From a virus, in the IMG/VR virus record IMGVR_UViG_3300025896_000054, positions 1 through 40,961 of that record: a stretch of DNA of 40,961 bases; one strand, 5' to 3'. Of this stretch, positions 5,224 through 40,961 are shown piece by piece (the first letter of the stretch is position 1; each line of letters begins with the position of its first letter). The notes beneath the pieces were generated by a model. That model had not been told where the DNA came from, made no database searches, and saw only the letters and a program-made list of their open reading frames with translations. The position numbers and the translations under genes are program-made.

Positions 5224-6207
5224 ATGAGCACCCAACTTGCCACCAAGACGAACGACCTCCGCTCGATCATCACGAGCGACAAAATGAAGCAGCAGTTTGC
5301 CGCTGCGCTTCCTCATCATCTCACGCCAGATCGGTTTTGCCGCATCGCGCTCACCGCTCTGACTCGCACGCCAAAGCTGGCCGACTGCACGCAGGAATCG
5401 CTTATGCGGTGTCTCCTCGACCTTTCGGCATACGGCATCGAGCCGGACGGCAGGCGGGCGCATCTCATCCCCTATGGGAATCAATGCACGCTGATTCTCG
5501 ACTGGAAGGGCTTGGCTGAATTGGCGATGCGTTCCGGCATCATCGCCAAGCTGCACGCCGACATTGTGTGCGAGAACGATGTTTTTGAATACAACATGGG
5601 CGAGGTCGTGCAGCACAAGATTGATTTCCGCTCGCCTCGTGGTGCCATGTATGCGGCCTACGCGATGGCGGTCACTAAAGACGGCCCGGTGTTCGTTGCG
5701 GTTCTCAACAAGGACGAAATCGACGGCATTCGTAAGCGCTCCAAGTCTGGCAACTCTGGACCGTGGCAGACCGATTATAACGAGATGGCGAAGAAAACCG
5801 CCTTTCGTCGTCTCGCGAAGTGGCTTCCGCTCTCGGCTGAGTTTCGCGATGCCGTGGACAAAGACGACGACCTGCAAGTTGAGCGCGATGTCACGCCGAA
5901 AGCAGCACGCGCAACGCCGCTCGATCCCTTCAAGTCGCTGCCTGAGCCTGCCGAAGAGTCCGCGCCAGTGGTCGAAGTCGAGGACGCAGCGCCCGAAGAT
6001 CCTGAGATTGAGATTCTGACCGACATGCTGACACTCATCGCTGACGCCACGGACGCGGAAACGCTCACCAGCTACGCGCATCAATCGAACAACAGCTTCA
6101 CCAGCGCAGCGAACACGAAACTGTGCAAGCGTGCCATCGCCGACAAGGCCAAGTTGCTCGGACTCAAGTGGGTGGGAACTTCGGAAGAAGGAGGGTTTCA
6201 AGCATGA
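5224..6207 (+). CDS. recT: RecT-family single-strand annealing protein
   Basis: A 327-residue protein. Residues of about 25-215 match the RecT/Redbeta-like core: FCRIALTALTRTPKLADC, ESLMRCLLDLSAYGIEPDG, then HLIPYGNQCTLILDWKGLAE and the late GPWQTDYNEMAKKTAFRRL. RecT proteins anneal complementary single strands during phage recombination and replication. The C-terminal 100 residues are acidic and variable. It forms an operon with a ParB-like gene and a YqaJ-type exonuclease, the usual partner that resects ends for RecT. The next gene overlaps by 4 bases. Confidence 0.92.
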   Translation: MSTQLATKTNDLRSIITSDKMKQQFAAALPHHLTPDRFCRIALTALTRTPKLADCTQESLMRCLLDLSAYGIEPDGRRAHLIPYGNQCTLILDWKGLAELAMRSGIIAKLHADIVCENDVFEYNMGEVVQHKIDFRSPRGAMYAAYAMAVTKDGPVFVAVLNKDEIDGIRKRSKSGNSGPWQTDYNEMAKKTAFRRLAKWLPLSAEFRDAVDKDDDLQVERDVTPKAARATPLDPFKSLPEPAEESAPVVEVEDAAPEDPEIEILTDMLTLIADATDAETLTSYAHQSNNSFTSAANTKLCKRAIADKAKLLGLKWVGTSEEGGFQA

Positions 6208-7010
6208 AAACAAGCATCGAACAAATCTCCCCAGAATTGGCAGTTCAATACCTGCTGAGCAATACGAACAACCGCCCTCTGCGTAAAACCCATGTGGCTT
6301 GGTTGGCGGATCAAATGAAAAACCAGCAATGGAAGCTCACGCATCAAGGTATTTGCTTCACTCAAGACGGCGCATTGAGCGACGGTCAGCACCGACTTGA
6401 GGCGATTATAGCCAGCGGAATGACCGTCCCTATGATGGTCACGCGTGGGGCTGAAACTGGCAATTTTGAAGCCTATGACTTGGGAATCGGGAGGACGGCG
6501 GCAGACATCACGCAAATGCCCAAGAAGAAGGTGGAAATACTGAACACTCTTGCGCTCGTTGATAAAAACCTATTCATGGCGGGGCGTTTTATTCCGGCTG
6601 ACATTGTGCGATTCAATGGCTTCTTTGGAGTGTTGATTGACCGGCTTTTCAAATATGCCGGAACCTCAAAAAAAGGCACTAGCAAGGCCACCGTTCGCTC
6701 TGCCGCAGTGCTTTGCATGGCCGAAGGCAATGAGTACGCTCTGGAGCAGTATAGGTGCCTGACACTATTGGACTTTTCAGGCATGAGTAGCGCTGTCCAG
6801 TCGCTGGCCCGGCAACTCCTTGGCACCCCAAGCAAGGGGAGCAACTTGCAGCGCGAACAGGAATTTGTTCGCGCCCTGCATGCCTTCAACCCAGATAACA
6901 AAGCCATTACCCGGCTCCAAATTAGCGACCCAACCGCTCACCTAAAAAGCGCACAGCAGCGCATTCATGCAATTGTCACCCTCGCAGCACGAAAGGAGAC
7001 CGAAGCATGA
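6204..7010 (+). CDS. ParB-like domain protein
   Basis: A 268-residue protein. The start at 6204 is supported by an AGGAGG-type site about ten bases upstream and a 4-base overlap with recT. The motif GALSDGQHRLEAIIASG near residues 53-69 is the ParB/Sulfiredoxin signature (DGxHR) that in ParB binds or hydrolyses a nucleotide. An upstream helical stretch (LRKTHVAWLADQMKNQQW) also fits this fold. The C-terminal 170 residues are helical with no recognised motif. Phage ParB-like proteins include nucleases, modification factors and anti-defence proteins. Its place between RecT and the exonuclease suggests a role on DNA. Confidence 0.75.
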   Translation: MKTSIEQISPELAVQYLLSNTNNRPLRKTHVAWLADQMKNQQWKLTHQGICFTQDGALSDGQHRLEAIIASGMTVPMMVTRGAETGNFEAYDLGIGRTAADITQMPKKKVEILNTLALVDKNLFMAGRFIPADIVRFNGFFGVLIDRLFKYAGTSKKGTSKATVRSAAVLCMAEGNEYALEQYRCLTLLDFSGMSSAVQSLARQLLGTPSKGSNLQREQEFVRALHAFNPDNKAITRLQISDPTAHLKSAQQRIHAIVTLAARKETEA

Positions 7011-7657
7011 AAATCCACAAAGGCTTTCTCCAAGGCTCCGAACAATGGTTTGAACTTCGGCGCGGTCGCGTGACGGCTTCAAACTTCGACAGGATCATGA
7101 CGGCGGTTCAATGCAAGTATTCAGCGCAGGCTGAAGGCTATCAGCGCGACTTGTTAGTCGAGAGTTTTTGCCCCGATTATGCCAAGTTCCTCGGCAACAA
7201 ATGGACAGAGCGCGGAACCGAGATGGAACCCGAGGCCCGCGCGGCATTCGAGGTCCACACGGGACTTGCAACTGAGCAGGTGGCATTCGTCACAACAGAG
7301 CGCTGGCAGCATGTCGTCGGCTGCTCTCCTGATTCACTCATCCCGGCTGGCGGATCATCCTATGCGTCCGGCCTTGAAATCAAATGCCCGTCTCCATTCA
7401 CTCATGCGGAGTACATCGAGAAAGGAATGCTGCCTGACGCCTACAAGATGCAGTGCCACGGCGGCATGATTGTCACGGGCTTGGATACTTGGCATTTCTT
7501 CTCCTATTTCCCTGGCCTTCAGCCATTCCACATCATTGTCAGGCGCGACGACTTCACCGCGAAACTGACAGACGCTCTCGACCGCTTCGTGATCGAATAC
7601 GGGGCCTATCGCGAGAAGATGACGCCGAAACTTCAACTCCAACCAACCGCGCAATGA
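7007..7657 (+). CDS. YqaJ-type phage recombination exonuclease
   Basis: A 216-residue protein of the lambda-exonuclease-like PD-(D/E)XK family. Visible motifs are GSEQWFELRRGRVTAS at residues 10-25, GTEMEPEARAAFE at 70-82, GCSPDSL with catalytic-type D109, and GLEIKCPSP with E124-x-K126. The enzyme resects double-strand ends 5' to 3' to load the RecT annealing protein. It overlaps the ParB-like gene and the following Lar-like gene by 4 bases each. Length and motif spacing are normal for the family. Confidence 0.9.
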   Translation: MKIHKGFLQGSEQWFELRRGRVTASNFDRIMTAVQCKYSAQAEGYQRDLLVESFCPDYAKFLGNKWTERGTEMEPEARAAFEVHTGLATEQVAFVTTERWQHVVGCSPDSLIPAGGSSYASGLEIKCPSPFTHAEYIEKGMLPDAYKMQCHGGMIVTGLDTWHFFSYFPGLQPFHIIVRRDDFTAKLTDALDRFVIEYGAYREKMTPKLQLQPTAQ

Positions 7658-9767: not shown

Positions 9768-9941
9768 ATGAAAACCTCGGAAGATATCAACGCGCTGCGT
9801 GACGCTATTGCGGCATCAAATGATTTACTCATACGCCTACTCCCATTTATGGAGGATATAGAGGGAGACGCAGCATATAAGCCGGGCGCCGTGTCGAAAC
9901 TTGTGAGTGAGTTGAAGCGCATTGTAAAGAGCAAGCCATGA
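9768..9941 (+). CDS. Small hypothetical protein (57 aa)
   Basis: It begins MKTSEDINALRDAIAASNDL and is helical. The ATG at 9768 is preferred because the stretch before it (ccaaccaccaaccaaacgac) has the G-poor leader composition seen before many genes here. An in-frame ATG at 9738, overlapping the preceding stop, would add ten residues. It overlaps the next gene by 4 bases. No family is recognised. Confidence 0.5.
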   Translation: MKTSEDINALRDAIAASNDLLIRLLPFMEDIEGDAAYKPGAVSKLVSELKRIVKSKP

Positions 9942-10231
9942 AAACCATTCCACCAACATCCTTCACGGTCGAGTTGCGACGCCGTAAGCTCTGGGTCAGA
10001 GGACTCGGACAAGCAGCAGTGCGAGACCTTATGACGATCATCGCCGAGCCTGCGCCGCTTTTGACGCGCTCATGGGCAGAGCGCTCGCTTGCCCCATCGA
10101 ATCTGGAGCACACGGGCAAGCTCGTGAACGCCGGATTCGTCCAACTCGACCGCGACGCCGGACTATTCCGCTCGACGGATGCGGGCCGGACGTGGATCGA
10201 GAAACTCAAAACGGCAAACATCATCCAATGA
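9938..10231 (+). CDS. Winged-helix-like hypothetical protein
   Basis: A 97-residue protein beginning MKTIPPTSFTVELRRRKLWV. Residues of about 45-90 have the pattern LEHTGKLVNAGFVQLDRD, then LFRSTDAGRTWIEKL. It resembles the wing region of small winged-helix (MarR-like) domains, where a 'GF/V...T..G' wing follows a recognition helix. DNA binding is therefore possible but not established. It is coupled by 4-base overlaps to genes on both sides. Confidence 0.55.
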   Translation: MKTIPPTSFTVELRRRKLWVRGLGQAAVRDLMTIIAEPAPLLTRSWAERSLAPSNLEHTGKLVNAGFVQLDRDAGLFRSTDAGRTWIEKLKTANIIQ

Positions 10232-10701
10232 AAACCAATACCACCACCATTCCGCAAATCACCTTTTACGTCGCCTGTGACGACAACCTCAAATCCACCG
10301 TGCGCAAAGCGTGTGCCATTTGGTCAGACGTGCTTTCCGGCTACGTCACGCTTCAACCGTGGGAAATGGGGCGCATTGTGAATATCACGGTCAAGATCGG
10401 CGACGGCGTGCAGACCATTGCTCACCCTGACCGCGTTGCGCACTGCAAGAGCGTTGCGCCTGACCTGTGGGCAATTCGTCTTGAGCGCGGTATCAAGTGG
10501 GCTGTAACGCCCTGGCAGCGCTTCTGGGGCCTTGGCGAAGATGCTCTTGCGGCTGTCGTGCATGAACTCGGCCACGTCTTCGACCTGCCGCATGCTTCAG
10601 ATCCCATCTGGGTCATGCACCCTGATATTGGCGGAAACGGCAAACTTTCCGAAAGCGAGAAGGCGTCATATCGAAACTTTTTCATTCAGAAGGTTCTATA
10701 G
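10228..10701 (+). CDS. Metzincin-like zinc metalloprotease
   Basis: A 157-residue protein with the zinc site VVHELGHVFDLPHASD: H112, E113, H116 and H122 in the metzincin order HExxHxxxxxH. It is followed by a Met-turn candidate WVMHPD with M130. The sixth residue of the motif is Asp rather than the usual Gly. There is no signal peptide, so it should act inside the cell or in the virion. Its place directly before the replication initiator, rather than near lysis genes, suggests a target among host or phage proteins early in infection. The target is unknown. Confidence 0.75.
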   Translation: MKTNTTTIPQITFYVACDDNLKSTVRKACAIWSDVLSGYVTLQPWEMGRIVNITVKIGDGVQTIAHPDRVAHCKSVAPDLWAIRLERGIKWAVTPWQRFWGLGEDALAAVVHELGHVFDLPHASDPIWVMHPDIGGNGKLSESEKASYRNFFIQKVL

Positions 10702-10773: not shown

Positions 10774-10884
10774 ATGAATCCAAAACCACATCGCCCCATC
10801 ATATCACCGCGCCAGCAATGGCCTCGCTGTCTCATGTCAGCGTTTCGAGCGGTGGTAGGTGGGGCGGCCTTTTGTCATGAGTGA
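10774..10884 (+). CDS. Possible 36-aa ORF in the pre-initiator gap
   Basis: This is the only open frame of note in the 175-base gap between the protease and the initiator genes. It encodes MNPKPHRPIISPRQQWPRCL and ends AAFCHE, overlapping the start of the initiator by 8 bases in another frame. There is no clear ribosome site. The gap also holds a short palindrome, CTAGC at 10733-10737 and GCTAG ten bases later, which could be an operator or part of an origin. Evidence for translation is weak. Confidence 0.2.
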   Translation: MNPKPHRPIISPRQQWPRCLMSAFRAVVGGAAFCHE

Positions 10885-11599
10885 CGCAAAAAACAGCGGT
10901 AGGCTTCCCGCCTTCCAGTTCTACCCTGCCGACTGGCGCAAAGATCCCGGCGTACAATCGCTCGATTTCGAGACCAGGGGAATTTGGTGGGAAATCATCT
11001 GCCTGCTTCATGAGTCTGACGAGCGCGGCGTCCTGTTGTTGAATGGTCAACCGATGCCAGAACCGGCGCTTTGTCGCCTTCTCGGTTTGGATAACCAAAA
11101 ACTAACCACCGCGTTAACCACCCTCCTAACCTATGGCGTAGCAAAGCGCAGGGAATCGGATGGCGCGATCTACTCAAAGCGCATGGTTGCCGACGAAAGA
11201 CTGCGCCAAATCCGCAAAGAAGCCGGTTCCAAGGGTGGAAACCCGCTTTTGGTTAAGCAAAACGTAACCACCCCGGTTAAGCAAAAATCAACCCCTTCAT
11301 CTTCATCTTCATCTTCATCTTCATCTTCAATAAAAGAAGAGCTAGCGCTCCCGTTCGCCTCTCCTGAATTTTCAGAATCGTGGAACAAGTGGATCAAATA
11401 CCGGAAGGAGATCAAGAAGCCGATCACGCCAACCATGGCAGAGTCACAACTCAAGAACCTTGCCGCCATGGGTGAGAGGAGAGCAATCGCCATGATCGAG
11501 AACACAATCATCAAGGGTTGGCAAGGACTCCGCGAAGAGTCGGAACAATCCTTTTTTGGAAGCGCACCGAAGAAGCCCAAACACCCATCATGCCTGTAA
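10877..11599 (+). CDS. Replication initiation / helicase-loader protein
   Basis: A 240-residue protein from the ATG at 10877. Residues 8-100 have the DUF1376-like or winged-helix initiator pattern PAFQFYPADWRKDPGVQSLD, then ETRGIWWEIICLLHESDERG. A linker of 11 consecutive serines (about residues 141-151) leads to a C-terminal domain (SWNKWIKYRKEIKKPITPTM, then NLAAMGERRAIAMIENTI) like the DnaD-type tails that contact DnaB. It probably binds the phage origin and loads the helicase encoded next, which overlaps it by 10 bases. Confidence 0.75.
   Translation: MSDAKNSGRLPAFQFYPADWRKDPGVQSLDFETRGIWWEIICLLHESDERGVLLLNGQPMPEPALCRLLGLDNQKLTTALTTLLTYGVAKRRESDGAIYSKRMVADERLRQIRKEAGSKGGNPLLVKQNVTTPVKQKSTPSSSSSSSSSSSIKEELALPFASPEFSESWNKWIKYRKEIKKPITPTMAESQLKNLAAMGERRAIAMIENTIIKGWQGLREESEQSFFGSAPKKPKHPSCL
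11296..11329 (+). repeat. Hexamer microsatellite (TTCATC) encoding poly-Ser
   Basis: Five full TTCATC units plus a partial sixth encode 11 serines, alternating TCA and TCT codons, in the linker of the replication initiator. Loss or gain of a 6-base unit would change the linker by two residues without shifting frame. Confidence 0.95.
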
Positions 11600-12912
11600 A
11601 ACCTCCATCGGCAGAAGAACTGCTCGCCAGCCTCAACCAGCCAATGCCGTTCAGTGCCGAGGCTGAAAGCGGCGTCCTCTCCTGCTTCATTCACGACTCG
11701 GCACGATTAGCGGCTTGCCTGCACTCCTCGCCACCGTCACTTTTCTACTCGGAGGCGAATCAAATCATCTTTTGCGCGATGGTGGACGAAATCACGGCAG
11801 GCAGGCCGATTGATCCCGTTTCTCTCACGCATCGCCTACGCAACGGCGGCAACCTCGATAAAGTTGGTGGTCCTTCGGCAATCTCGGAGCTTCACGGCAT
11901 GATGATCATTCCGGCCCTGTTCTCGCACTACATGGGCATTCTGCGCGAGCTTTACAGTCAGCGGAAGCACATCGAGGCGCACGCCAGATCCTTGACGTTC
12001 CTGTTCCAAGCTCGGGACGGTGAGGTTGCGGCGACGCTGGACACGATCAAGGGCGTGTTGGAAGAGGCCGGGAAGATGCCGGGGCAACTCCTCAAGAGCG
12101 TGTCTTTGCGCGAGGCCATGGACCCGCTTCTTGCCGAAATCGAGCAGCGAGCGGCAAACCCTGGGAGACTGCCGGGTATTCGCACGGGATTCCCGACTAT
12201 CGACCGCAACACGGGGGGCATGATGCCGGGGCAAGTTTGGGTTTTCGCTGGTGAGCCTGGGGACGGCAAGAGCACGATTATTCAAAACTGCGCCGAGTCT
12301 GCGGCCGAGGATGGGAACAAGGTCCGGTGGTATCCGCTCGAAATGCCGCACAACGAGCAATCTTTGCGGCTGCTGGCGTCTCACTCCCGAGTCGATAACG
12401 GGAGCATTTACCGTGGAGACCTGACGCCGGGGCAAATGATGGCGGTCTCCGCTTCCTGCGCGAAGATCAAGCGGGCTTCTCAAATCGAGTTGGTCGATGT
12501 GGAGGATGCCAGCGCGACAGATATCTTCGCCGACATCGAGAGAAGCGACGCTGCCGTGGTGGTGGTCGATTACCTGCAACTCATGGAGGACGGGAGCGCG
12601 CGGAAGTCGGACACACGGGAGGGCGTTCTTGCCTCCATATCGCGCCGTCAGAAGCGTTTAGCGCGTCGGACTGGCAAAGTCATCCTGACTGCATCGCAGC
12701 TCAATGACAGTGGCAAACTGCGCGAAAGCAGGGCTATCGGGCAAGACGCCGACAAGGTGATGATGATCCGCAAGGTTGCATCTGACGATTCAGATACCGG
12801 CTTCGATGACGAGAAGCGCAATCTTTGGTGCGAGAAGAACCGAGGCGGAAAACGTCATTGGGAGCTTCCGCTTCTGTTCCTTGGCTCAATCTTTCAATTC
12901 CGCGAACCATGA
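11590..12912 (+). CDS. dnaB: DnaB-type replicative helicase
   Basis: A 440-residue protein from the ATG at 11590. The N-terminal domain starts at PFSAEAESGVLSC, as in DnaB. The RecA-like domain has Walker A GEPGDGKST at residues 221-229 and Walker B VVVVDYLQLMED at about 323-334. It ends with the typical WCEKNRGGKRHWELPLLFLG strand. The enzyme unwinds DNA 5' to 3' as a hexamer. The phage shows no DNA polymerase or primase gene in this window, so it would depend on the host replisome. The initiator just upstream is the likely loader. Confidence 0.9.
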   Translation: MPVKPPSAEELLASLNQPMPFSAEAESGVLSCFIHDSARLAACLHSSPPSLFYSEANQIIFCAMVDEITAGRPIDPVSLTHRLRNGGNLDKVGGPSAISELHGMMIIPALFSHYMGILRELYSQRKHIEAHARSLTFLFQARDGEVAATLDTIKGVLEEAGKMPGQLLKSVSLREAMDPLLAEIEQRAANPGRLPGIRTGFPTIDRNTGGMMPGQVWVFAGEPGDGKSTIIQNCAESAAEDGNKVRWYPLEMPHNEQSLRLLASHSRVDNGSIYRGDLTPGQMMAVSASCAKIKRASQIELVDVEDASATDIFADIERSDAAVVVVDYLQLMEDGSARKSDTREGVLASISRRQKRLARRTGKVILTASQLNDSGKLRESRAIGQDADKVMMIRKVASDDSDTGFDDEKRNLWCEKNRGGKRHWELPLLFLGSIFQFREP

Positions 12913-22085: not shown

Positions 22086-23051
22086 ATGTACATCAAGAAC
22101 AGATTCATTTTCGGAGAAGAGGGCGGCGACGGCGGCAGCAATGGAGGCGGGCAAACGCTTCTCGGCAGTGCGGCAGGCGCGGCGGATGGCGGTCAACAGC
22201 AACAGCAGCAAGGCGGCGACGAAGGCTCGAAGGCGTATGATTTCCGGTCGTCGCTCGGCGAGGACGGCAACTTTCGGCAAGGCTGGACAAACGACCTGCC
22301 CGACGACCTGAAGGCCGCAAACACCATCCTTGGCAAGTACCCGAATCCCGTCGAAATGGCGCGCGGACTGGTGAACGCGAACAAGCTCATTGGACAAAAG
22401 ACCACGCTCAAGGCCCCGGCTCCAGATGCCAAGCCGGAGGAGGTCGAGAAGTTCAACGCGCAGATTCGTGACGTGCTCGGCGTTCCTCAAAAGGTCGATG
22501 ACTACAAGCTCGAAAAGCCTGCCTCGATTCCCGAGGGGCTGACCTGGAACGAGGAGAAAGCAGCCGATTTCGTGAAGTTGGCGCACTCGCTGAACATCCC
22601 TCCAGCGGCTGCGAACAAAATCGCAGAGTGGCAGATGGCAAACATGGGCGACGCCGTGAAGCAGGGGCAGGCGCAAATTGACGCCTGGGTTCAAGGCCAG
22701 CAAGCCGAACTAGAAAAGGACTGGGGCGCGGACTATGACGTTAACTTGGGCAAAGCGAAACGTGCGGCACAACTCGCAGGCTTCGACCTGAACGACGGCG
22801 AACTTGCGAACAATGCGAAGTTCGTGAAGGCCATGCTGACGGTATCCAGTCTCATCAAGCCGGATGCTGTCGTTGGCGCTGACAAGACGGGCATTCCGCT
22901 CGATGGCGCGGCGCAGGCTGAAGACATCCGGCGCAATCCGTCGAATCCGTGGCATGCCGCCTATAACGGCAAAGAAGGGTCTGCGCGCCAGAAGGAAGCT
23001 CAAGCGCTGATGATGCGTCTTCAGGGCATCAAGGAGGATGCTGCGGCATGA
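22086..23051 (+). CDS. Scaffolding protein
   Basis: A 321-residue acidic protein. The N-terminus is Gly/Gln-rich (GGQQQQQQGGDEG). A helical core follows (LKAANTILGKYPNPVEMARG, LVNANKLIGQKTTLKAPAPD, then LGVPQKVDDYKLEKP) and matches the usual phage scaffold or capsid-assembly pattern with the 'G-x-P-x-x-x-x-x-Y' segment. The C-terminus is RNPSNPWHAAYNGKEGSARQ, then EAQALMMRL. It would direct coat assembly and leave before maturation. Normally the capsid gene follows at once; here a reversed cassette intervenes. Confidence 0.82.
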   Translation: MYIKNRFIFGEEGGDGGSNGGGQTLLGSAAGAADGGQQQQQQGGDEGSKAYDFRSSLGEDGNFRQGWTNDLPDDLKAANTILGKYPNPVEMARGLVNANKLIGQKTTLKAPAPDAKPEEVEKFNAQIRDVLGVPQKVDDYKLEKPASIPEGLTWNEEKAADFVKLAHSLNIPPAAANKIAEWQMANMGDAVKQGQAQIDAWVQGQQAELEKDWGADYDVNLGKAKRAAQLAGFDLNDGELANNAKFVKAMLTVSSLIKPDAVVGADKTGIPLDGAAQAEDIRRNPSNPWHAAYNGKEGSARQKEAQALMMRLQGIKEDAAA

Positions 23052-23177: not shown

Positions 23178-23849
23178 TTACTCAGCGTCAATTCTGCGTG
23201 TGGCTGCAATCTTAAGCAGGAGGTCGCGAAATTCCACGGGGGTGTGGATTCGTGGCGTGCTGTTGGCGCCGCCGCCGCGTGCTCCAACTTCACCCAAGCG
23301 CTTCGCTCTTTTCAGTCCCATGCGCTCGACCACGGCGGGGTCGTATTGCGCCTCGGAGTGTCCCCAATGGAGTTCCGGCAGTTCTACCCCGAAGGCATAG
23401 AGCAGCGTCGGCTTGCGGGCGTAGTGGCCATACTTGCCCTGCTCCACGCAACACGTCCAGCCGCCCAGTGTGTCGGCGGCGATCCATCCACCAGTGCGCG
23501 GCGGGACGTTAAGCCCGAAGTGAGGCCAAGCATGGCTTTGCCATGGATGTTCTAGAATACCACCGAATTTCCGCACAGCGGCGAGCGCGGCGGCAAAGCA
23601 TCCGCTATCGTCCCCTTTCTTCTTGCGGACGCCGGTTAGCTTCACTGTGAGCGGTTGACCGAACCACATTTTCCCCCAGCGCTGGCAGGGAGGATGCGCC
23701 ACAACCGGCCACGGGCCATTGTAGAGTCTCGCGTCGCGCTGTTCGGGCCACGCGTCCACGTTTGGCATGCCTGAATAACACCCATCGGACTGCACGAAAA
23801 GGGCAGCGATTGTCTGGCGATCTAGCGGAAGTTGTGATTGATGGTCCAT
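23178..23849 (-). CDS. C5-methyltransferase-like protein (minimal)
   Basis: A 223-residue protein. It has VVAHPPCQRWGKMW (PPC at 53-55, like motif IV of cytosine-C5 methyltransferases), GGILEHPWQSHAW (E100 in the place of motif VI), and QGKYGHYARKPTLLYAFG (137-154, recalling motif VIII). The SAM-binding 'FxGxG' start and a target recognition domain are not evident. It may be a catalytically reduced relative, a protein that mimics or protects DNA sites, or an enzyme of another specificity. It is transcribed against the flanking head operon. Confidence 0.6.
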   Translation of the reverse strand: MDHQSQLPLDRQTIAALFVQSDGCYSGMPNVDAWPEQRDARLYNGPWPVVAHPPCQRWGKMWFGQPLTVKLTGVRKKKGDDSGCFAAALAAVRKFGGILEHPWQSHAWPHFGLNVPPRTGGWIAADTLGGWTCCVEQGKYGHYARKPTLLYAFGVELPELHWGHSEAQYDPAVVERMGLKRAKRLGEVGARGGGANSTPRIHTPVEFRDLLLKIAATRRIDAE

Positions 23850-23893: not shown

Positions 23894-24208
23894 TCACCAT
23901 CCTTCCCATTCTGGCATCGTTTCTGGTTTCGGGATGGGCAGACAGAGGTCGAAGTCTTCTGGCACATCGGTGGGGAGATTGCATGAGTCCACACATGCAA
24001 GGCATGTCCAGCCTTCGGGGGTCTGCTTGAGTAGCGCGACGTGACCAGTGTATTCAACTGCCAGGGCTTTACTGAGACTGTCAATCTCCCGCTTCACATC
24101 GGCGATATGTGTTTGCATTCGCGATCTCACCCGTTCGAGTCGAGTCCGCAGAATGTGGTCTTGTTTCAGCACTTGGGCTGTTTGAAGGTGGGCTTCGTCT
24201 GTTCTCAT
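23894..24208 (-). CDS. Coiled-coil hypothetical protein, cassette gene
   Basis: A 104-residue protein beginning MRTDEAHLQTAQVLKQDHIL. Residues 1-50 are a likely coiled coil. The C-terminal half has WTCLACVDSC, a possible metal site, and an acidic Pro-rich end (MPEWEGW). It is the first gene of the minus-strand cassette between scaffold and capsid. The family is not recognised. Confidence 0.55.
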   Translation of the reverse strand: MRTDEAHLQTAQVLKQDHILRTRLERVRSRMQTHIADVKREIDSLSKALAVEYTGHVALLKQTPEGWTCLACVDSCNLPTDVPEDFDLCLPIPKPETMPEWEGW

Positions 24209-30564: not shown

Positions 30565-32310
30565 ATGGCCCTTGTTCCTCTCGCTCCCATCGCTCGCGCT
30601 CCAAACGTCTCAACGCAGCCGTTGGCGACCGTGCGCCTTCAGTCTGCCGGTCCTTCGCAAGGGATGCAGATGGCAGAGGCAATCGGGCAGGTGGGCGCGG
30701 TGGCCGCTAATCTCCAGTCCAAGTACGCCGAGTTGACGGATACGCGGAATCTCATCGAGGCCGAGGAGGTCATGCGCGCGAAAACGCAGGAGTTCGATAT
30801 GTGGCGCAGGGACCCGGTGAACGCCGACGAATCGCAATGGCTCCCAAAGTGGCAGGAGATGCAGAATGCGACGCAGAAACATATCGACGGCCTGAAGATC
30901 ACGGATCGAGCGCGGCTGAATTTGTCGCGCTCTTTCGGGCAATGGGCGGACAAGCAGACGATTTCCGTGCAAGGGGACGCCTTCAAGCAGGGAGTGAAGC
31001 GCACAGGTGCGGCGTTGGAGTTGCGAATCAATCAAGGCATCGAGTCGGGTGACGACGGCATTGTTGCTTCCTCCTATGACAGCGCGGCCAAGCTCGGCGT
31101 AATGCTGCCAGAAGAAGCAGAACTCGGGAAGTTTGGCGCTCTCAAGCGCGCAAAGGAAACGAGGCGCTCGAACACTTTTATGGAGATTGAGACACTCAAA
31201 AAGGATGCTGCGGCAACCTTTGAAGATGTGCGTCAAAAAGTGGTCGAGTCACCCGATCTGACCGACACGGAAAAGACCAGCATTCTTGTGGAGGCGGAAA
31301 ACCAATACGCCTTTCAGGATATGAAGAATCTCATCTACGCGAATCCAACGCACGGCCTGGAGGTTGCCAAGAATGATCTTGGTCGACGCGCTATCTCGCA
31401 AGCGCAATACAACGCCCTTGAAGTCGCCTCGCAGAATCGAATCGTTGAGTTACAGCGCGGTGAATATGCCGAGATTGTGGACAAGATGAAGGGCGGCAAG
31501 GTCAAGCCTGACGCTCTGCGGGGCATGATTCTCGATTCTGTGCGCCTGTCGGATGGACAAAAAGCAGAACTGGCGACGATCCTCGACGGCCCCACGAACG
31601 ACCCGCAAGTTTATTCGTCCCTCATGAAAGAGGCGGCAAACTTTGAGCATGACGCCGATTCTCCGCAGTACGCCATGTTTATCACCAGGATGCAGGCGAA
31701 TTTAGAGGGCACGCATTTGTCGGAAGCTCAGGCCGCCTTGAAAGAGCGAGTCGGCGCAACGGGCGATCCTTATGTACGGTCCAAGGGAGCAGTGTACTCG
31801 ACTGCTGACGATGATTTGAAAGCGGGAATGTTTGGTCCTTTGACTGGCAAGTTGTCCGATTTGAAAACGCAGTTGCCGCCGAAGATTCAAGCGCAGGTCG
31901 ACACCTTAAAGGATGCGCAAATAAAGGCCGAGGCTGAAGGACGAGCGAAACGACATCCAGACGAACCGCGACGCATCGACTTCATTGAGTCGAAAGCGCG
32001 CGAGGCTTGGTGGAACACGCAACCGGAAGAGTTGCGCGGCGCATCTTATGAGGCTTTCGAGATTGAAGATTTGGCAAAAAGCCGAGAGGCTGGCGCGCGG
32101 CAGACGGAAATCTTGCAATCGCTCGACAAGTTTAAGGCTGACAAGCCGAATGCTACGGCAATGGAGCTTCGGCAGTTCTACGATTCGCAGGTTGCCGACC
32201 TTCGCAAGAAGGCGAGTCTCCCGCCTGTAGCATCGGGCGGCTCATCCGCGATTGGAACGACGCTGCCAACCATTGACGCAATCCATTCCCGCCATGCCCC
32301 AAATCCTTGA
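30565..32310 (+). CDS. Internal/ejection protein (581 aa), gp15-like position
   Basis: From the ATG at 30565 the product begins MALVPLAPIARAPNVSTQPL. It is almost entirely helical and charged (LQSKYAELTDTRNLIEAEEV, later LDILKR-like repeats are absent). It lacks membrane spans and enzymatic motifs. Gene order (gp14-like, this gene, giant protein) matches the T7 gp14-gp15-gp16 ejection set, so it probably lines the trans-envelope channel. The upstream in-frame extension runs through the terminator repeats and is rejected. Its 3' end overlaps the giant gene by 17 bases. Confidence 0.65.
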   Translation: MALVPLAPIARAPNVSTQPLATVRLQSAGPSQGMQMAEAIGQVGAVAANLQSKYAELTDTRNLIEAEEVMRAKTQEFDMWRRDPVNADESQWLPKWQEMQNATQKHIDGLKITDRARLNLSRSFGQWADKQTISVQGDAFKQGVKRTGAALELRINQGIESGDDGIVASSYDSAAKLGVMLPEEAELGKFGALKRAKETRRSNTFMEIETLKKDAAATFEDVRQKVVESPDLTDTEKTSILVEAENQYAFQDMKNLIYANPTHGLEVAKNDLGRRAISQAQYNALEVASQNRIVELQRGEYAEIVDKMKGGKVKPDALRGMILDSVRLSDGQKAELATILDGPTNDPQVYSSLMKEAANFEHDADSPQYAMFITRMQANLEGTHLSEAQAALKERVGATGDPYVRSKGAVYSTADDDLKAGMFGPLTGKLSDLKTQLPPKIQAQVDTLKDAQIKAEAEGRAKRHPDEPRRIDFIESKAREAWWNTQPEELRGASYEAFEIEDLAKSREAGARQTEILQSLDKFKADKPNATAMELRQFYDSQVADLRKKASLPPVASGGSSAIGTTLPTIDAIHSRHAPNP

Positions 32311-35300
32311 AAGTGAAGCCATTGCTCTAGCTCAAAACATCGACTCTCTGGACGATGCGCGGAAGGCAAAATCACTCGACATCCTGAAGCGCTACCAACA
32401 GCAGCAGCGGGATCTTGGAGAACCGGAATGGCCCACGCAGGCCAAACAGCAAGCGGAGGCGGAAACCCGTTTTCGTTCGATGTTTGATTCTCCCGAGAAG
32501 GTGCCTTACGACCCCGGCCCGTACGCGAAAGATCCAAACGCTGAACGCGTCAGTTACGCAAACGCGGCATTCATTGCCAATAGATACAACGTCGAGTTCG
32601 GTGAAGCTGTGGACCGGAGGCGCTTCTATATGGATGATTACGCCGCGAAGAAGGGGCAAAAGTCTGGTCTCGATGAGATGGCATTTTACAACCTAGCCAA
32701 AGGGGAAGTGGCAGAAACCAAACTCGCGGAAGATACGCGTCTCGAAGGCGCAAAGGCTGCGCTGCGTGGAGAGGATGTTATCGGCTCGCTTCAGGCGTGG
32801 CAGGGCAAGAATCTCGATCGACTGGCAGGCTCTACCGATTTCACCAAGGGCTATCTGAAGGCCAAAGATCAAGCAGGCGATTACCTGCCGATGGCCGACG
32901 AGTTGCTGAAACTCATGGAAAGCCAGACAGGACAGAGCAACAGCGCGCGGACGTTTGACACAAAGGCCGCGTCTCGGCTCGATGAACTGGCGGTTGAACT
33001 CGCGGGAATGAAGCCGCGCGAACGCAAGCAGGTCTATGCTTCGATTGCCGCGCGCTCTGAGATGGCCGGATATGAGCAGAAGGGATTCTGGTCTCAGATG
33101 CTCGGCGAACTCGACAAGGGGCTTTTACGCATGAGTTCCACCGTTGGAACTACGGCCGGAAATGCGGCGGATGTGATGAGGAACTTTCCGGCCATGCTGG
33201 CGGAAGGGGCCACGGGAAACCGCGATTTCGGCATGAAGCCGGGCGAGGTTGCCAACACTGACGAAACTATCGCGCAACGCCAAGCACTCGGCGAAATTCA
33301 CGACGAGCTTGCTTCCATCGTCTCGGGCACGGTCGATCCCGTGCGGCCAACAATCGGCTGGCTGAATGACACGGTCGAAACCGGACTCATCAAAGGCCCT
33401 GGCGCTGTCATGCCATTCATGGCGGCGACAGCGGCGCTCGGACCGTGGGGCGGCGGCATGCTGTTCACGGCTGACTTTGCCGAACAGAATCGGCGCGATC
33501 TGCGCGCGGCCGGCATGGATAATGACCGAGCGATTCAAATCGGCACCGTCGCGGCTCCACTGCAAGCGGCTGTCGAGTCGCTGTCGAACATGCTCCAACT
33601 TGGCAAGTTCACCAAACTGCAAAGCGTGCTCGCGAATTTCACGAAACCGATTGGCGGCGGAGCAGGCTTGGCGCTTCGATACGCTCAAAATACTGGAATC
33701 TCGCTGGCGACCGAGTACACCGAGGAGCAACTTCAAGACAACTTCATCGTTCCGGCAGTTCAGGAAATCGTTGGCGCTCTTGCTGCCGACGTGCCGGAAG
33801 TCGATTGGAGTTTTTACAAGACGCGCGCGGCTGAATCGACGCCTGAATTGCTGTCTGTCTTGGCTCCTATGGCGCTCGTCTTTGGTGGCGTCATGACCGG
33901 CGCTCAAGCCAACCTCTCGCGCGAGATGACGAGCAATATCGACGCGCTGAAGGCGTTGAACTACTCGGAAGCGCAGGCAACCGAGATTGTTGCGGAAAAG
34001 ACCGAGGAAGGCAGAATTGCAAAAGCCTCGTCCATGTGGGGCGTGCGGGCTGGCGACAAGACGACTTTGGAAGAAGGCGCACGCAGTCTATCCGAGCGCA
34101 TGCGGCAGCTTTCCGGCGATGTCGTGGCGCAACAGCAGGAGCTTGAACGGCGCGGCATCCTTCCGCGCATGCTTCGCGCAACCGAGGATCAATGGCGGCT
34201 GACGTTTCAAGATGGGTCAACGGCTGCATACAACTCGCACGCGGAAGCAGACGCGGCACGCTGGACTTGGACCGAGGATCAACTCGGCAAGGTCCACGCG
34301 CTCACCCGTGAAACGCTTTCGAGCATGGAGCGCAACCTTGACGTGAAACGCGAAATCGGCGTCGAGTTTTCGCCGGATGCCCGCACGGCGCAAGATGCCG
34401 TCAACGACGGGGTAAGCGTTGAGCAGATGTCGAGGCGCGTGAAGCAAGGCGCGGCTCTTGGCGACGTTGCGCCTGACACAGCTTTTGATGACGCTCAGGC
34501 CATCGACAAGGCAACGGCTGACTCGGAGGGCTTTCTGTCGTCGCTGCGGATTCTCGGCAGTTCGCGCAATGAGTTCAAAGACGGTGTTTTGCGCACGACC
34601 ATCCGGCTTTGGGAAGGCTCGAACGTGCTGACGCTCGTAGAAGAGAAGCTCGAAGGCGATGCCAAGGCAATCATTTCCGAGCGACGCGGGCGGGACTGGA
34701 TGCTTTCGCGGCTGCGGTCCTACGAGGAGACGAGCGGCGACAAACTCTTTCGCGACGTGCCAGACGAGCAGCTCAAAGACGACGACATAATCGAGGCGTG
34801 GTCACACCTGGGGCAGAGCTACCTTGTCGGGCGCTCGACGTTTGGCGAGCCATTGCAGGCAAAGACCATGAGGCGGTTTGGTCGTCTCTTGATGCGCGCC
34901 GGGTTCACGGGCGCTATGAACTCGGAAGCGTCCTTTTTCGCCGCCGTCGCCAGTCGCGCGAAGAAGCTCGGAGAGTTGCAAAAGGCAGGTAAACTCGGCG
35001 CTGACCTGACGGCTGAACTCGAAAAGCAACTCGGCATTGACTCGCAGGTTGCGCACGATGCAGGCGCGGAGGCAGAAGCGCGCCAACTCATCGACACTTC
35101 CGGCTATTCGGAAGAGACGCCGGGGCCTAATGGTGAGACATTTTCCATATCGTCCAAAGAACTGCGCGTTAAAATCGAGGTGTCACCCGACTCAACAACC
35201 CTTGGCAATCTTGGAATTACCGAGGGGTTTCACGCCAATCATGGAGGCGAGGTTGTGCCAGATTTCGCGCCACGCGCATCTAAGCAGGGCCGTAAGGGGC

Positions 35301-38300
35301 AATACGCTGGTTTTTATCTCGGTCCGGCCATTAATGAAGTGAGCCAATACGGCCAGAATGTCTCCACGTTTCCGCTCAATCCAAATACGCCAGTTAAGGT
35401 TCTTCGCCGTCCTGGGCAGGTTGAGCGCATCACGCCGGAAATGGCGGCGGCATGGCGGGCCGAGGGGTTTAGCGTCGTGGTCGGTCCAGCGATCATTCCT
35501 AGCAAGATCGAGATTGCCACGCTTAGTGCTAACGTGTTGAATACGCCGGGGCCGAATGGCGAGACGTTTTCCACTTCCCGCGCAACTCCCGCAGACGCCT
35601 CGAACGTGGTTCAAATGCCGGACGGCGCTCGACTCGTTGGGCCTACGACGTTCTCAATCCGGGCTTTTCATGGGACTCCACACAAAGTGGATCGCTTCAG
35701 CCTCGACAAGATAGGCACGGGCGAGGGGGCGCAGGCTTACGGACACGGTTTGTATTTCGCTGAATCAAGGGGCGTTGCCAAAAGCTACCAAGATAGCCTC
35801 TCTGGCGCTTTGAGCGGGCAACCTATGATTGCGGGGGTTGTGCCAGCCTCGACCGATAAAACACTCGCGGATAGAACTTGGATGTCGGTTAAAGAGCTTT
35901 CCGAGACGCTTGTATCCGATCCCTTGAACGTAAAGAGATTTAGCCAACTCGACATCGAAAGTAGGAGTGACGTGCTCGCGGTGATGAGCCGACTTTTGCA
36001 AGATGGCGAGATTCGACAGTCTGTTATCAGACTTGTTCCCGTTGATGTGGTGAACATGCTCACTGGTCTGCAACTTCCTGCCGATAGCACCCTCCATGAT
36101 GGCTCTGTGCTCGTAAACTTGCCTTCCATCTACCCTCGTAATCCGGTACCCAGCTTTGTTCAAGCCGTGGACATACTGGCTCCGTTGGTGGCACTCTCTG
36201 GAGCAAAAAGACTTACCGGACTTGGTAGGTTTGATGTTACTCCTAAAGAAGCCCTTACCGCATTCAGAACAGGTGATGTTGCTCATATTGCTGGCAAAAT
36301 ACCCCTCCCGTCAGAGTTTGCAAGAACAAAGACAACCGGCAACCTCTACACCGTCGAACTCCTGCCGGATGAATCCGAGTTTTTGGACTGGGACAAGCCG
36401 CTGAGTGAGCAGAGCGAGAAGGTGAAGGCGGCGTTTTCGCAACTCCACAAAAGCAATAAATCAGCCTTCGACTACTACGACAAAACGCAGTCGAACAAAT
36501 TCGCTGACGGTTCCATTTATGGATCTGCTCTTTATGCTCGCCTCTCTATGCGAGACATGCCAGCGGGTAACGATGCGCAAGCGTCGAGCCTCTTGGTTTC
36601 AATGGGGGTGAAGGGCATCCGCTACCTCGACGGCGGCAGTCGCCAGCGCCGGTTCTACACTGAAAGGGTCAATGGCAAAATCCGGGTAGCAGATGATAAA
36701 AGCGGCAAATACACTGGCCCGGTTTTTGAAAACATGGACGAGGCTATCGCCTTCCGTGACGAACTAAACAGCAAGGAACCCAAGCAAACCTACAACTACG
36801 TCATCTTTGACGAGAATCTCATTCGCATCCTCGAAGAGAACGGCAAGCCTGTTGGCGAGACGTTCAGCCTCCGCTCCGGCGACTTCGCCTCACGCGCGGC
36901 GGCAATGTTCTCGCCGTTCCAGCGGTCTCCCGAGGCTCGCATGGCGATTGCCCGCGTCGCGAAAGAGCGCGCGATGAGACTCGGCGCGGAGTGGATCGAG
37001 AAGGCGGCAGTGATTCGCTCGGCATCAAGCATCAACCGCGAGGTGGCGTTTCGTGAGGCTGACGGCTTCGACCGGCGCATGACGGCATACCTCGACAGCC
37101 TGACGCCAAACGCGCGGCAGAACCTGGAATTTGAACCGGCTTCACTCGAAGACGACCCGTTGATTTCTGCCATGCTCGACTTTGGCAAGTTGATGTCTCG
37201 TTCTACCGCCATCAAGAACGGCGTGCAAAACATGGATGAGTTCGAGGGTGCTCCGTGGCTTCCTCCTGCGTGGTATTCCAAGGGTTCCGGCATCACTCCC
37301 GGCAAGATGGCAAAAGCCATGCACGAAGGCGCGGACGGAAACGGCGGACCTCTGGCGGCTGGCGACAGTGCCGCCGATTTGTGGGATGCTGTAGCCTCTC
37401 GCATTGAATCTAGCCGCAAGGACAAAGCGGCTTATCGTGAAGCCGTGCAGGCCTTCCGTGACGCCAAGAAAACGGCACGCACGGAAGCAAAGACCGAAGC
37501 GGAAGCGTGGGGCGAGCGCACGAAGAAAACGGCGGGCAGTCCAAAGGCTCAACGCGACATGCTCAAGGCTGCTCTGCGCACGCTCGATGGCATCTTGTCG
37601 GCGGCTCCTCCCGAGGTCCGCGCGCGAGTCGGCGGCTACGTCAAACTTGCCGGGCTGGCGACGGATGAGGCGATGCTTCAGGAAATCGAGCGGCGCGTTG
37701 CAAAGCTGAACGTCGAGCTTGAGAAGTGGCTCAAGAAGGAAGCGCGCGCGCAACTGGTAAAGGTGTTCAAAAAAGCCGCCCCGAAAACTGAATCAGGCGA
37801 GAAGGCGAAGGGCAAATTGACACCCGAGTTGCACGCATGGTTTTCGATGGCTGAAGACGCATCGGAGCTTTCGCCTGCCGTTGCAGACGAGCGAATTGAA
37901 GGAATCGAAAACACTCTTTCCGGCGAAATGACGAAGGCCATTAAAGAGGACTTGTCGAAATGGCTCGGCAGGGAAATCACCGACGACGCAGAAGCGCGAG
38001 ACTGGCAAGAGCAACGCCTGACCATTTTGCAAACTTTCGGCTCCGTTCTGCACGGCACAGACGCAAAGGCGGCGCGGGGATCGGCGGAAGTTACGGCGGC
38101 GCTCGATCTTGCTCGCGAGGCCTATTCGCAGGGAAGGCTTGCGCACATCGAAGAAACCGCGAAGAAGCGCGAACGTCGGGCGGCTGAGCGGCTGGACGGG
38201 ATTACCCGTGTCGGGTCTCCGTATGACGCGAGTAAGGCAAACGCTCGGCGTCGTGAACTCAACAAGATTGCCGGACTCAAGGGGCGCGCTGCGGACTACC

Positions 38301-40199: not shown

Positions 40200-40460
40200 A
40201 TGAACCGAGAACAGGCTTCCAAAGGCTACAAGGCCGTCACGACGACCGACGCAACCCCATTCAACTTCTTTGGCTTCACGGTCATTTCCGAGGCGACGAT
40301 TGCAACGCTTGTTGCGCCGACTGCTGGAAGTCCTGACGGGACAGCCTACGACGGCGACGAGGCCGGAATTGCCGGGGATGCGCTGCCGACCGGCTACTAT
40401 CCCGTTCGTGGATCTTCGATCACTCTCACCTCCGGCAAAGTCATCCTTTGGAAAGAGTGA
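40200..40460 (+). CDS. Small virion-type hypothetical protein (86 aa)
   Basis: The complete homologue of the partial gene at the left edge. It begins MNREQASKGYKAVTTTDATP and ends SSITLTSGKVILWKE, and is probably an all-beta small protein. It starts 43 bases after the giant gene, with a G-poor leader (ctaatccctccaaattcacc). Its place between ejection and lysis genes suggests a minor virion part. The family is not recognised. Confidence 0.7.
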   Translation: MNREQASKGYKAVTTTDATPFNFFGFTVISEATIATLVAPTAGSPDGTAYDGDEAGIAGDALPTGYYPVRGSSITLTSGKVILWKE

Positions 40461-40463
40461 ACT

Positions 40464-40760
40464 ATGACGCTGGAAACCGCCGCCATCGCTGCGTTGAGTG
40501 CCGTCACTGGCGCTTTGTGCTTCATGTTCAAACTACTCTGGAAGCGTTCGCAGGATTGCGAGGAATGGCGAGACGAGAAAGAGCCGCTCATCAACCAAAT
40601 GGCGCAAGAGCTTGGCATTCATTCCGGCATCACGCGCATGGTCAATACCTGCCACGTCAAGGGATGCCCATATGCGGGCACCCTGACGGGCACCCTGACG
40701 GCGGAAACTTTTTCGATTCAGAAATCAACCGCACACAACAAGGACCACCACCACCCATGA
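40464..40760 (+). CDS. Holin-like small membrane protein, second copy
   Basis: A 98-residue homologue of the gene at 212-505, with the same membrane segment at residues 5-24 and the same DHHH end. It differs by an extra residue near position 86 (IQKSTAHN versus IQSAAHN) and an Arg-for-Asn-type change in the charged region (EEWRDEKE versus EEWRNEKE). It overlaps the next gene by 4 bases. The holin role is inferred from topology and context. Confidence 0.6.
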   Translation: MTLETAAIAALSAVTGALCFMFKLLWKRSQDCEEWRDEKEPLINQMAQELGIHSGITRMVNTCHVKGCPYAGTLTGTLTAETFSIQKSTAHNKDHHHP

Positions 40761-40961
40761 AAAGCATGCTCCTCCCTCTCATCGCCAGCCGCAACGGTTG
40801 GGCATTCCGTCAAGTTCTGAAAGCCATCACGGTTGCTTGTGCGTCCGTGACTGCTTGGCTCACGTCGAGCGGAGTCGATGCCAGTACGTCAACGGCTATT
40901 GTTGCGGGCATCGGCGCGGCTCTTTCGTGGGGCGCTGAGCTTGGCCTGTCGAAACTCGCGT
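40757..40961 (+). CDS. Holin/lipoprotein gene, second copy, cut by window end
   Basis: The first 68 codons of the homologue of the gene at 502-903, beginning MKSMLLPLIASRNGWAFRQV. Both holin-like hydrophobic segments are present. The lipobox part lies beyond the window. At the protein level only one residue in the visible part differs from the left copy (Leu for Ile at position 6). Confidence 0.6.
   Translation, partial: MKSMLLPLIASRNGWAFRQVLKAITVACASVTAWLTSSGVDASTSTAIVAGIGAALSWGAELGLSKLA

Follow-up and report, generated by a model that had tools for sequence, protein, structure and literature searches.

Metzincins have mostly been studied as secreted enzymes that are restrained by prodomains or inhibitors. 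The locus described here raises the question of what a protease of this type would do when a phage encodes it next to its replication genes and appears to keep it inside the bacterial cell. The DNA that we analysed (the window) is a virus contig of 40,961 bases whose portal bears a distant resemblance (28%) to the portal of Bordetella phage BPP-1. The initial annotation, made from the sequence, had pointed out that an open reading frame at 10228-10701 encodes a signal-less protein of 157 residues with HELGHVFDLPH and a downstream Met, beside an initiator and a helicase. We confirmed this description, with Asp at the position of the motif Gly. The features that the text refers to are as follows.

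5224-6207, same direction as the metzincin gene, upstream: RecT
7007-7657, same direction as the metzincin gene, upstream: YqaJ exonuclease
9938..10231, + strand: 97-aa upstream gene that bounds a variable slot on the left; 5 of 13 relative loci have a homologue
10228..10701, + strand: metzincin (matrixin-type) ORF, 157 aa, without signal peptide or prodomain; fold model and 21-member family
10561..10593, + strand: zinc-binding motif HELGHVFDLPH, residues 112-122, on model helix 106-117 and the loop after it
10615..10617, + strand: Met130, Met-turn candidate (WVMHP); Met in 21 of 21 aligned rows, loop modelled at low confidence (pLDDT 54-63)
10877..11599, + strand: replication initiator of the O-like type, closing the variable slot on the right; match to phrog_678 'replication initiation O-like' (E 3.9e-13)
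11593..12912, + strand: DnaB-type replicative helicase; PF03796 (DnaB_C), E 2e-38; 57 relative loci
22086..23051, + strand: scaffold-like gene, 73% identical to the homologue in the phage contig L086, which the metzincin gene follows in L086
24783..25676, + strand: major head protein, 81% identical to that of L086, where the gene matches phrog_3437 'major head protein' (E 1.2e-57) and forms the right border of the metzincin slot

The ATG of the metzincin gene overlaps the stop codon of the 97-aa gene (ATGA, 10228-10231), and the gene lies just upstream of the initiator and then the helicase. Promoter-like sites were fewer than expected (1 found versus 3.9), terminator-like sites were in slight excess (17 versus 12.6), and an Rfam search gave no match. 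The DnaB matches among annotated phages were all below 60% identity. The two ends of the record (1-706 and 40253-40961) form an imperfect direct repeat of 709 bases that is 95.6% identical and is not an exact terminal repeat.

Fold and family of the 157-residue protein

When we shuffled the residues of all 363 six-frame ORFs of at least 60 aa in 2000 sets, HExxHxxxxxH arose in 197 sets, and the motif followed by a Met 5-25 residues downstream arose in 31. Because shuffled ORFs reproduce the motif and the Met at this rate, the motif by itself is weak evidence, and the metzincin identity of the protein is decided by homology and fold.

AlphaFold2 gave a pLDDT of 80.5 with 11 sequences, and a pLDDT of 82.9 and a pTM of 0.81 with 21 family members, the model having a full matrixin (MMP) fold. 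Its elements (E11-17, H19-35, E40-44, E53-58, E71-77, E80-86, H106-117 and H142-156) follow the order of a minimal metzincin, with an N-terminal sheet, helix A, the active-site helix and a C-terminal helix. VIA-align of the model returned a Z score of 14.8 to MMP-11 (rmsd 3.3, 141 of the 157 residues aligned) and of 14.4 to karilysin; since the two scores differ by less than 1, we treat them as tied for the best structural match. In a Foldseek search with the first model, MMPs headed the list (MMP-13, E 2.4e-7) and snapalysin stood at rank 43. The initial annotation had allowed for a fold in which the residues of the zinc site do not come together; the matrixin fold was predicted instead. A 7-member profile of the family matched MMP-12 in the PDB with E 8.7e-8. 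Against Pfam M10 (PF00413), the window protein scored 20.7 bits, under the cut-off of 24, and all 10 homologues tested scored above that cut-off (27.2-41.9); P0001 and P0002 scored 30.2 and 48.3 bits, respectively. Because of the fold and the active-site residues, we assign the product of the ORF to the zinc endopeptidases, as a predicted single-domain enzyme with the matrixin fold.

The family has in common with the matrixins (PF00413; the catalytic domains of MMP-11, MMP-12 and karilysin) the fold, HExxHxxxxxH with the Met, and profile similarity. It differs from them in having neither signal peptide nor prodomain and in that the motif Gly is not conserved. MMPs have structural zinc and calcium sites. 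These sites do not appear to be kept in the phage family, because there is no invariant His or Asp apart from H112, H116 and H122 across the 21 aligned rows. Two other zincin families were considered and rejected. The archaemetzincins (M54; NF033823) likewise have no signal peptide and show local motif similarity (HELGHVFGL), but the window protein scored 19.5 bits against the NF033823 cut-off of 145, the Cys-rich Met region (HC....C.MHFSN) is absent, and there is no Cys near M130. The phage 'SprT-like' protease gp38 of Gordonia phage Elinal is an HExxH zincin with a weak local match (E 0.7); it reads THELAHALTPGHNH, with a different spacing, and belongs to another family.

The best viral fold match was UniProt A0A6J5P205 from an uncultured Caudovirales phage (162 aa, E 3.3e-14, TM 0.78, 34% identity), which very probably belongs to the same family. 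It is called 'Peptidase M10 metallopeptidase domain-containing protein', an automatic name only, and since the protein carries this name, the family was already in the databases without a function. Our search of the open-access PMC literature found no paper on a signal-less phage metzincin and none on A0A6J5P205; M10-like metagenomic ORFans are listed in PMC4508852. Listeria Mtz, compared here by its published description, is also a phage-associated metzincin encoded by an accessory gene, with HExxHxxGxxH/D and a Met-turn. Unlike the product of the window gene, it is Sec-secreted, paired with the TIMP-like lipoprotein Tim and encoded downstream of holin-lysin. According to PMC8235301, the source for all these points, catalytically active Mtz cleaves Tim and raises lysis sensitivity, and the E136A mutation abolishes the cleavage. 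Phage-associated metzincins were thus already known from the secreted Listeria Mtz and from the UniProt phage 'peptidase M10' relative; what is apparently new is a branch of matrixin-fold metzincins in phages that is signal-less, prodomain-less, position-hopping and apparently intracellular.

Relatives and conservation of the zinc site

A single-protein scan of viral contigs with the window metzincin returned no relative, and the family was found via helicase relatives. A scan of viral contigs with the portal returned no relative either, though portals of 73% identity exist among the relative loci; since the scan missed such portals, absence in it is weak evidence. Profile scanning of viral contigs yielded 18 loci; each of two earlier scans had yielded 12. 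After duplicate removal, the alignment held 21 distinct proteins including that of the window; the identical or overlapping copies L061-L072, L075, L078, L079, L087 and L100 and the distant matches L080-L083 were left out. All 26 matched records have one metzincin copy each, and G043 also has a very weak match of 21 residues.

Among annotated phage records there was no convincing relative, the searches giving either no match or weak ones. The strongest of these extends over 34 residues of a record labelled 'Matrixin' (E 1e-3), which has grpE, dnaK and purK as neighbours and appears to be bacterial. The 17 genome matches cover 22-73 residues of the query, and 11 of them are archaemetzincin-like by eye. 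The statement of the initial annotation that cytoplasmic metzincins are uncommon has to be given up on this point, as signal-less ones are not rare.

H112, E113, G115, H116, H122 and M130 are kept in all 21 distinct aligned proteins, the window protein included. Homologues lacking the third His had been named as evidence that would count against a metzincin site; the third His is present in every row, displaced in three of them. L102 and L103 have an insertion ahead of it (L102:7926-8426 and L103:6378-6875, with the active-site spacing variant HEFGHVFLDD.DHWH), and in L074 it is shifted by one residue (L074:5001-5420, a natural spacing variant, HEIGHALGIIEH). The assignment of the third ligand in these three proteins is unsure. 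The position of the canonical metzincin Gly (HExxHxxGxxH) is more variable, with Gly in 8 rows, Asp in 6 (including the window), Ala in 4, Gln in 1, and the position within the insertion in 2. Small HExxH proteins of another kind, not metzincin-like, also occur in some of the helicase- or metzincin-related phages (L097:5150-5419, L020:396-701, L033:4762-5040 and L055:4016-4324), with motifs such as HEIIHHLAPD, HEFLHYRHPH and HEFLHE.

Purifying selection acts on the metzincin relatives: for the 18 pairs, drawn from 15 of the 21 rows, whose nucleotide identity is 62% or more, dN/dS always lay between 0.115 and 0.463. This range describes the relatives and not the window gene, which has no close pair. 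In the tree, the window protein forms one clade with those of L086, L088 and L089 (bootstrap 97, SH-aLRT 97), and its exact place inside the clade is unsure because its branch is long (1.09).

Genome position of the gene

Neighbourhoods were read from called ORFs that were annotated in part with PHROGs and Pfam. The four members of the window clade occupy four settings (replication, head, tail and helicase/endolysin), and no adjacent gene family is common to all four. The L086 metzincin gene (L086:7980-8465) starts 3 bases after the scaffold-like gene and lies ahead of the major head protein gene, that of L088 sits among tail genes upstream of the tape-measure gene, and that of L089 lies between an SNF2 helicase gene and a CHAP endolysin gene on the opposite strand. 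The metzincin genes of L091-L096 have a phrog_3704 gene, DNA methylases or SNF2-type helicases nearby, genes that look early-type by context. Four distinct shorter members (L073, L074, L076 and L077) each follow a tail-fibre-like gene, as do those of L102 and L103. An amidase gene in L073/L060 and a CHAP/PG-binding endolysin gene in L074 lie within about 1.2 kb downstream of the metzincin gene, and in L098 an endolysin-like gene precedes the metzincin gene by about 2.5 kb. The metzincin genes of L097, L098, L099 and L101 were not placed in any module. The initial annotation had reasoned from the replication operon towards early action. This reasoning fails, since relatives are found near replication/DNA-modification, head, tail and tail-fibre/endolysin genes, and with modules so varied the adjoining genes give no indication of early action.

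The clearest evidence on position comes from comparing the window with the L086 phage, which separates the gene from its backbone. The portals and the scaffold-like genes of the two phages are 73% identical, the major head proteins 81%, the three genes following the head protein 73-79%, and the exonucleases 73%, while the metzincins are only 45% identical and lie in different modules. The head slot that holds the metzincin gene in L086 has different, reverse-strand genes in the window. These genes, at 23178-23849 (-) and 23894-24208 (-) in the scaffold-capsid gap, have no Pfam family; the gap in L086 contains other genes besides the metzincin gene. At the window's own slot, five relatives keep the 97-aa gene on the left and the helicase on the right and carry other cargo between them without a metzincin, namely an SNF2-type helicase and a methylase in L002, L008 and L009 (by eye, apparently one arrangement), a DUF262-like gene in L003 (by eye) and small ORFs in L004. 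The metzincin gene was present in 2 of 27 helicase-related records. Because of the position in L086, the swapped cargo in the slot and the presence in 2 of 27 records, the metzincin gene is an accessory cargo gene that is gained and lost and not a part of the replication machinery. It occurs in only some relatives, at non-equivalent sites and with a divergence unlike that of the backbone, as a mobile 'moron' does, and its location in the replication operon is incidental.

Compartment, proposed action and alternatives

Metzincins are commonly secreted or externally bound (PMC8235301). The window protein shows no evident signal peptide and no evident membrane-spanning segment; its most hydrophobic segment of 19 residues averages 0.78 on the Kyte-Doolittle scale, and a hydrophobic N-terminus is absent in all 21 rows. 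The first strand of the catalytic domain begins at residue 11, so that a prodomain with a cysteine switch is absent. The window metzincin therefore probably acts inside the bacterial cell, and the model and the sequence support the initial view of an intracellular protein with a metzincin site in a metzincin fold. Because signal peptide and prodomain are both missing, action in the cytosol, immediately upon synthesis, would be expected. Folded in the cytosol of the host, the protein would bind zinc through H112, H116 and H122, E113 would activate water, and the enzyme, having no prodomain, would be active as soon as it is synthesised. It may then benefit the phage by cutting one or a few host proteins, whether a regulator, part of a defence system or a barrier that rival phages use.

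Cargo genes that come and go mostly act on the host or on competitors. For this reason proteins of the host or of rival phages are the most probable targets of the putative cytosolic endopeptidase, an assignment to which we give about an even chance. The joint reading, in which the predicted matrixin-fold endopeptidase is mobile cargo and also cleaves a host protein, seems to us about evenly balanced between right and wrong. The enzyme may cleave a regulator or a defence protein of the host, as the initial annotation had suggested, and early action on a host regulator is a guess. PADLOC assigned no family to any of the 10 members tested, with a library that covers defence systems and not counter-defence. 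We also propose, tentatively and with more doubt than confidence, that this roaming branch of prodomain-free intracellular matrixins serves phages as interchangeable host-takeover or counter-defence proteases that fit into early modules as readily as into late ones. A family without both usual restraints, apparently intracellular and carried as single-gene cargo, would provide a small repertoire of MMP-fold proteases that need no activation, and the question it raises is which bacterial protein is worth cutting for different phages.

The main rival is an accessory lysis enzyme that is made late, escapes from the cytosol by way of holin lesions, as an endolysin without a signal peptide does, and cleaves proteins of the envelope; it is the main rival because copies of the gene adjoin endolysin genes and because of the Listeria precedent. 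Several relatives lie near endolysin genes, a location that suits a role in lysis or at the envelope at least equally well. The shorter members L073, L074, L076 and L077 follow tail-fibre-like genes, with the endolysin (L074) or amidase (L073/L060) gene downstream, the L089 gene adjoins the CHAP endolysin gene on the other strand, and L098 has its endolysin-like gene upstream; in Listeria prophages, mtz-tim lies downstream of holin-lysin and secreted Mtz sensitises the cells to lysis (PMC8235301). However, judged by context, early-type genes surround the window copy and six further distinct members (L091-L096), there is no signal peptide, and we found no TIMP-like or lipoprotein partner and no neighbour family common to the window clade. 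We consider a lysis role unlikely on balance. The gene might also be decaying, or its product might be a zincin scaffold that has lost catalysis. In favour of this, 11 of the 21 rows have Asp, Ala or Gln in place of the metzincin Gly, and an insertion interrupts the motif in two rows. But every row keeps all zinc ligands, the Glu of catalysis and the Met, and none of the 18 pairs reaches a dN/dS of 0.5, which makes this reading very improbable.

Alternatively, the enzyme might process proteins of the phage itself, such as those of the head or the window's polyvalent protein of 2634 aa. The L086 metzincin gene does lie between scaffold-like and major head genes, and zincin-like domains in polyvalent proteins have been proposed to process these proteins (PMC5512222). 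Yet the window and L086 have the head module in common and the metzincin gene at different positions, and the giant polyvalent protein occurs in 3 of 13 records with a metzincin versus 7 of 14 without, so that no obligate pairing is seen; processing of the polyvalent protein is unsupported by co-occurrence in these 27 records, many of which may be fragments. Processing of phage proteins is, in our judgement, improbable. We judge in much the same way a metzincin that is packaged in the virion, injected and active at entry: some copies do lie among head, tail or tail-fibre genes, but their position is inconstant and no structural gene is linked to the metzincin family-wide. The preferred reading is thus the cytosolic endopeptidase directed at a host or rival-phage protein.

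The polyvalent ORF itself (32252-40156, +) contains, antisense within its ART domain, a 173-aa ORF that is HNH-like by eye (35765-36286, -) and has no PDB match. The sense frame stays open across the insert, and the alignment with homologues of the polyvalent protein, which lack the insert, breaks off near residue 1187 and picks up again near 1339-1362. Two of the metzincin-bearing contigs carry DUF1501 and PSCyt2/PSD1 (DUF1549/DUF1553) genes (L098:2287-3585, and L101:8831-10594 and 10800-12041, the second L101 gene being assigned by similarity to L098). We take such genes to be typical of Planctomycetota and Verrucomicrobiota, and they are a possible hint at the host.
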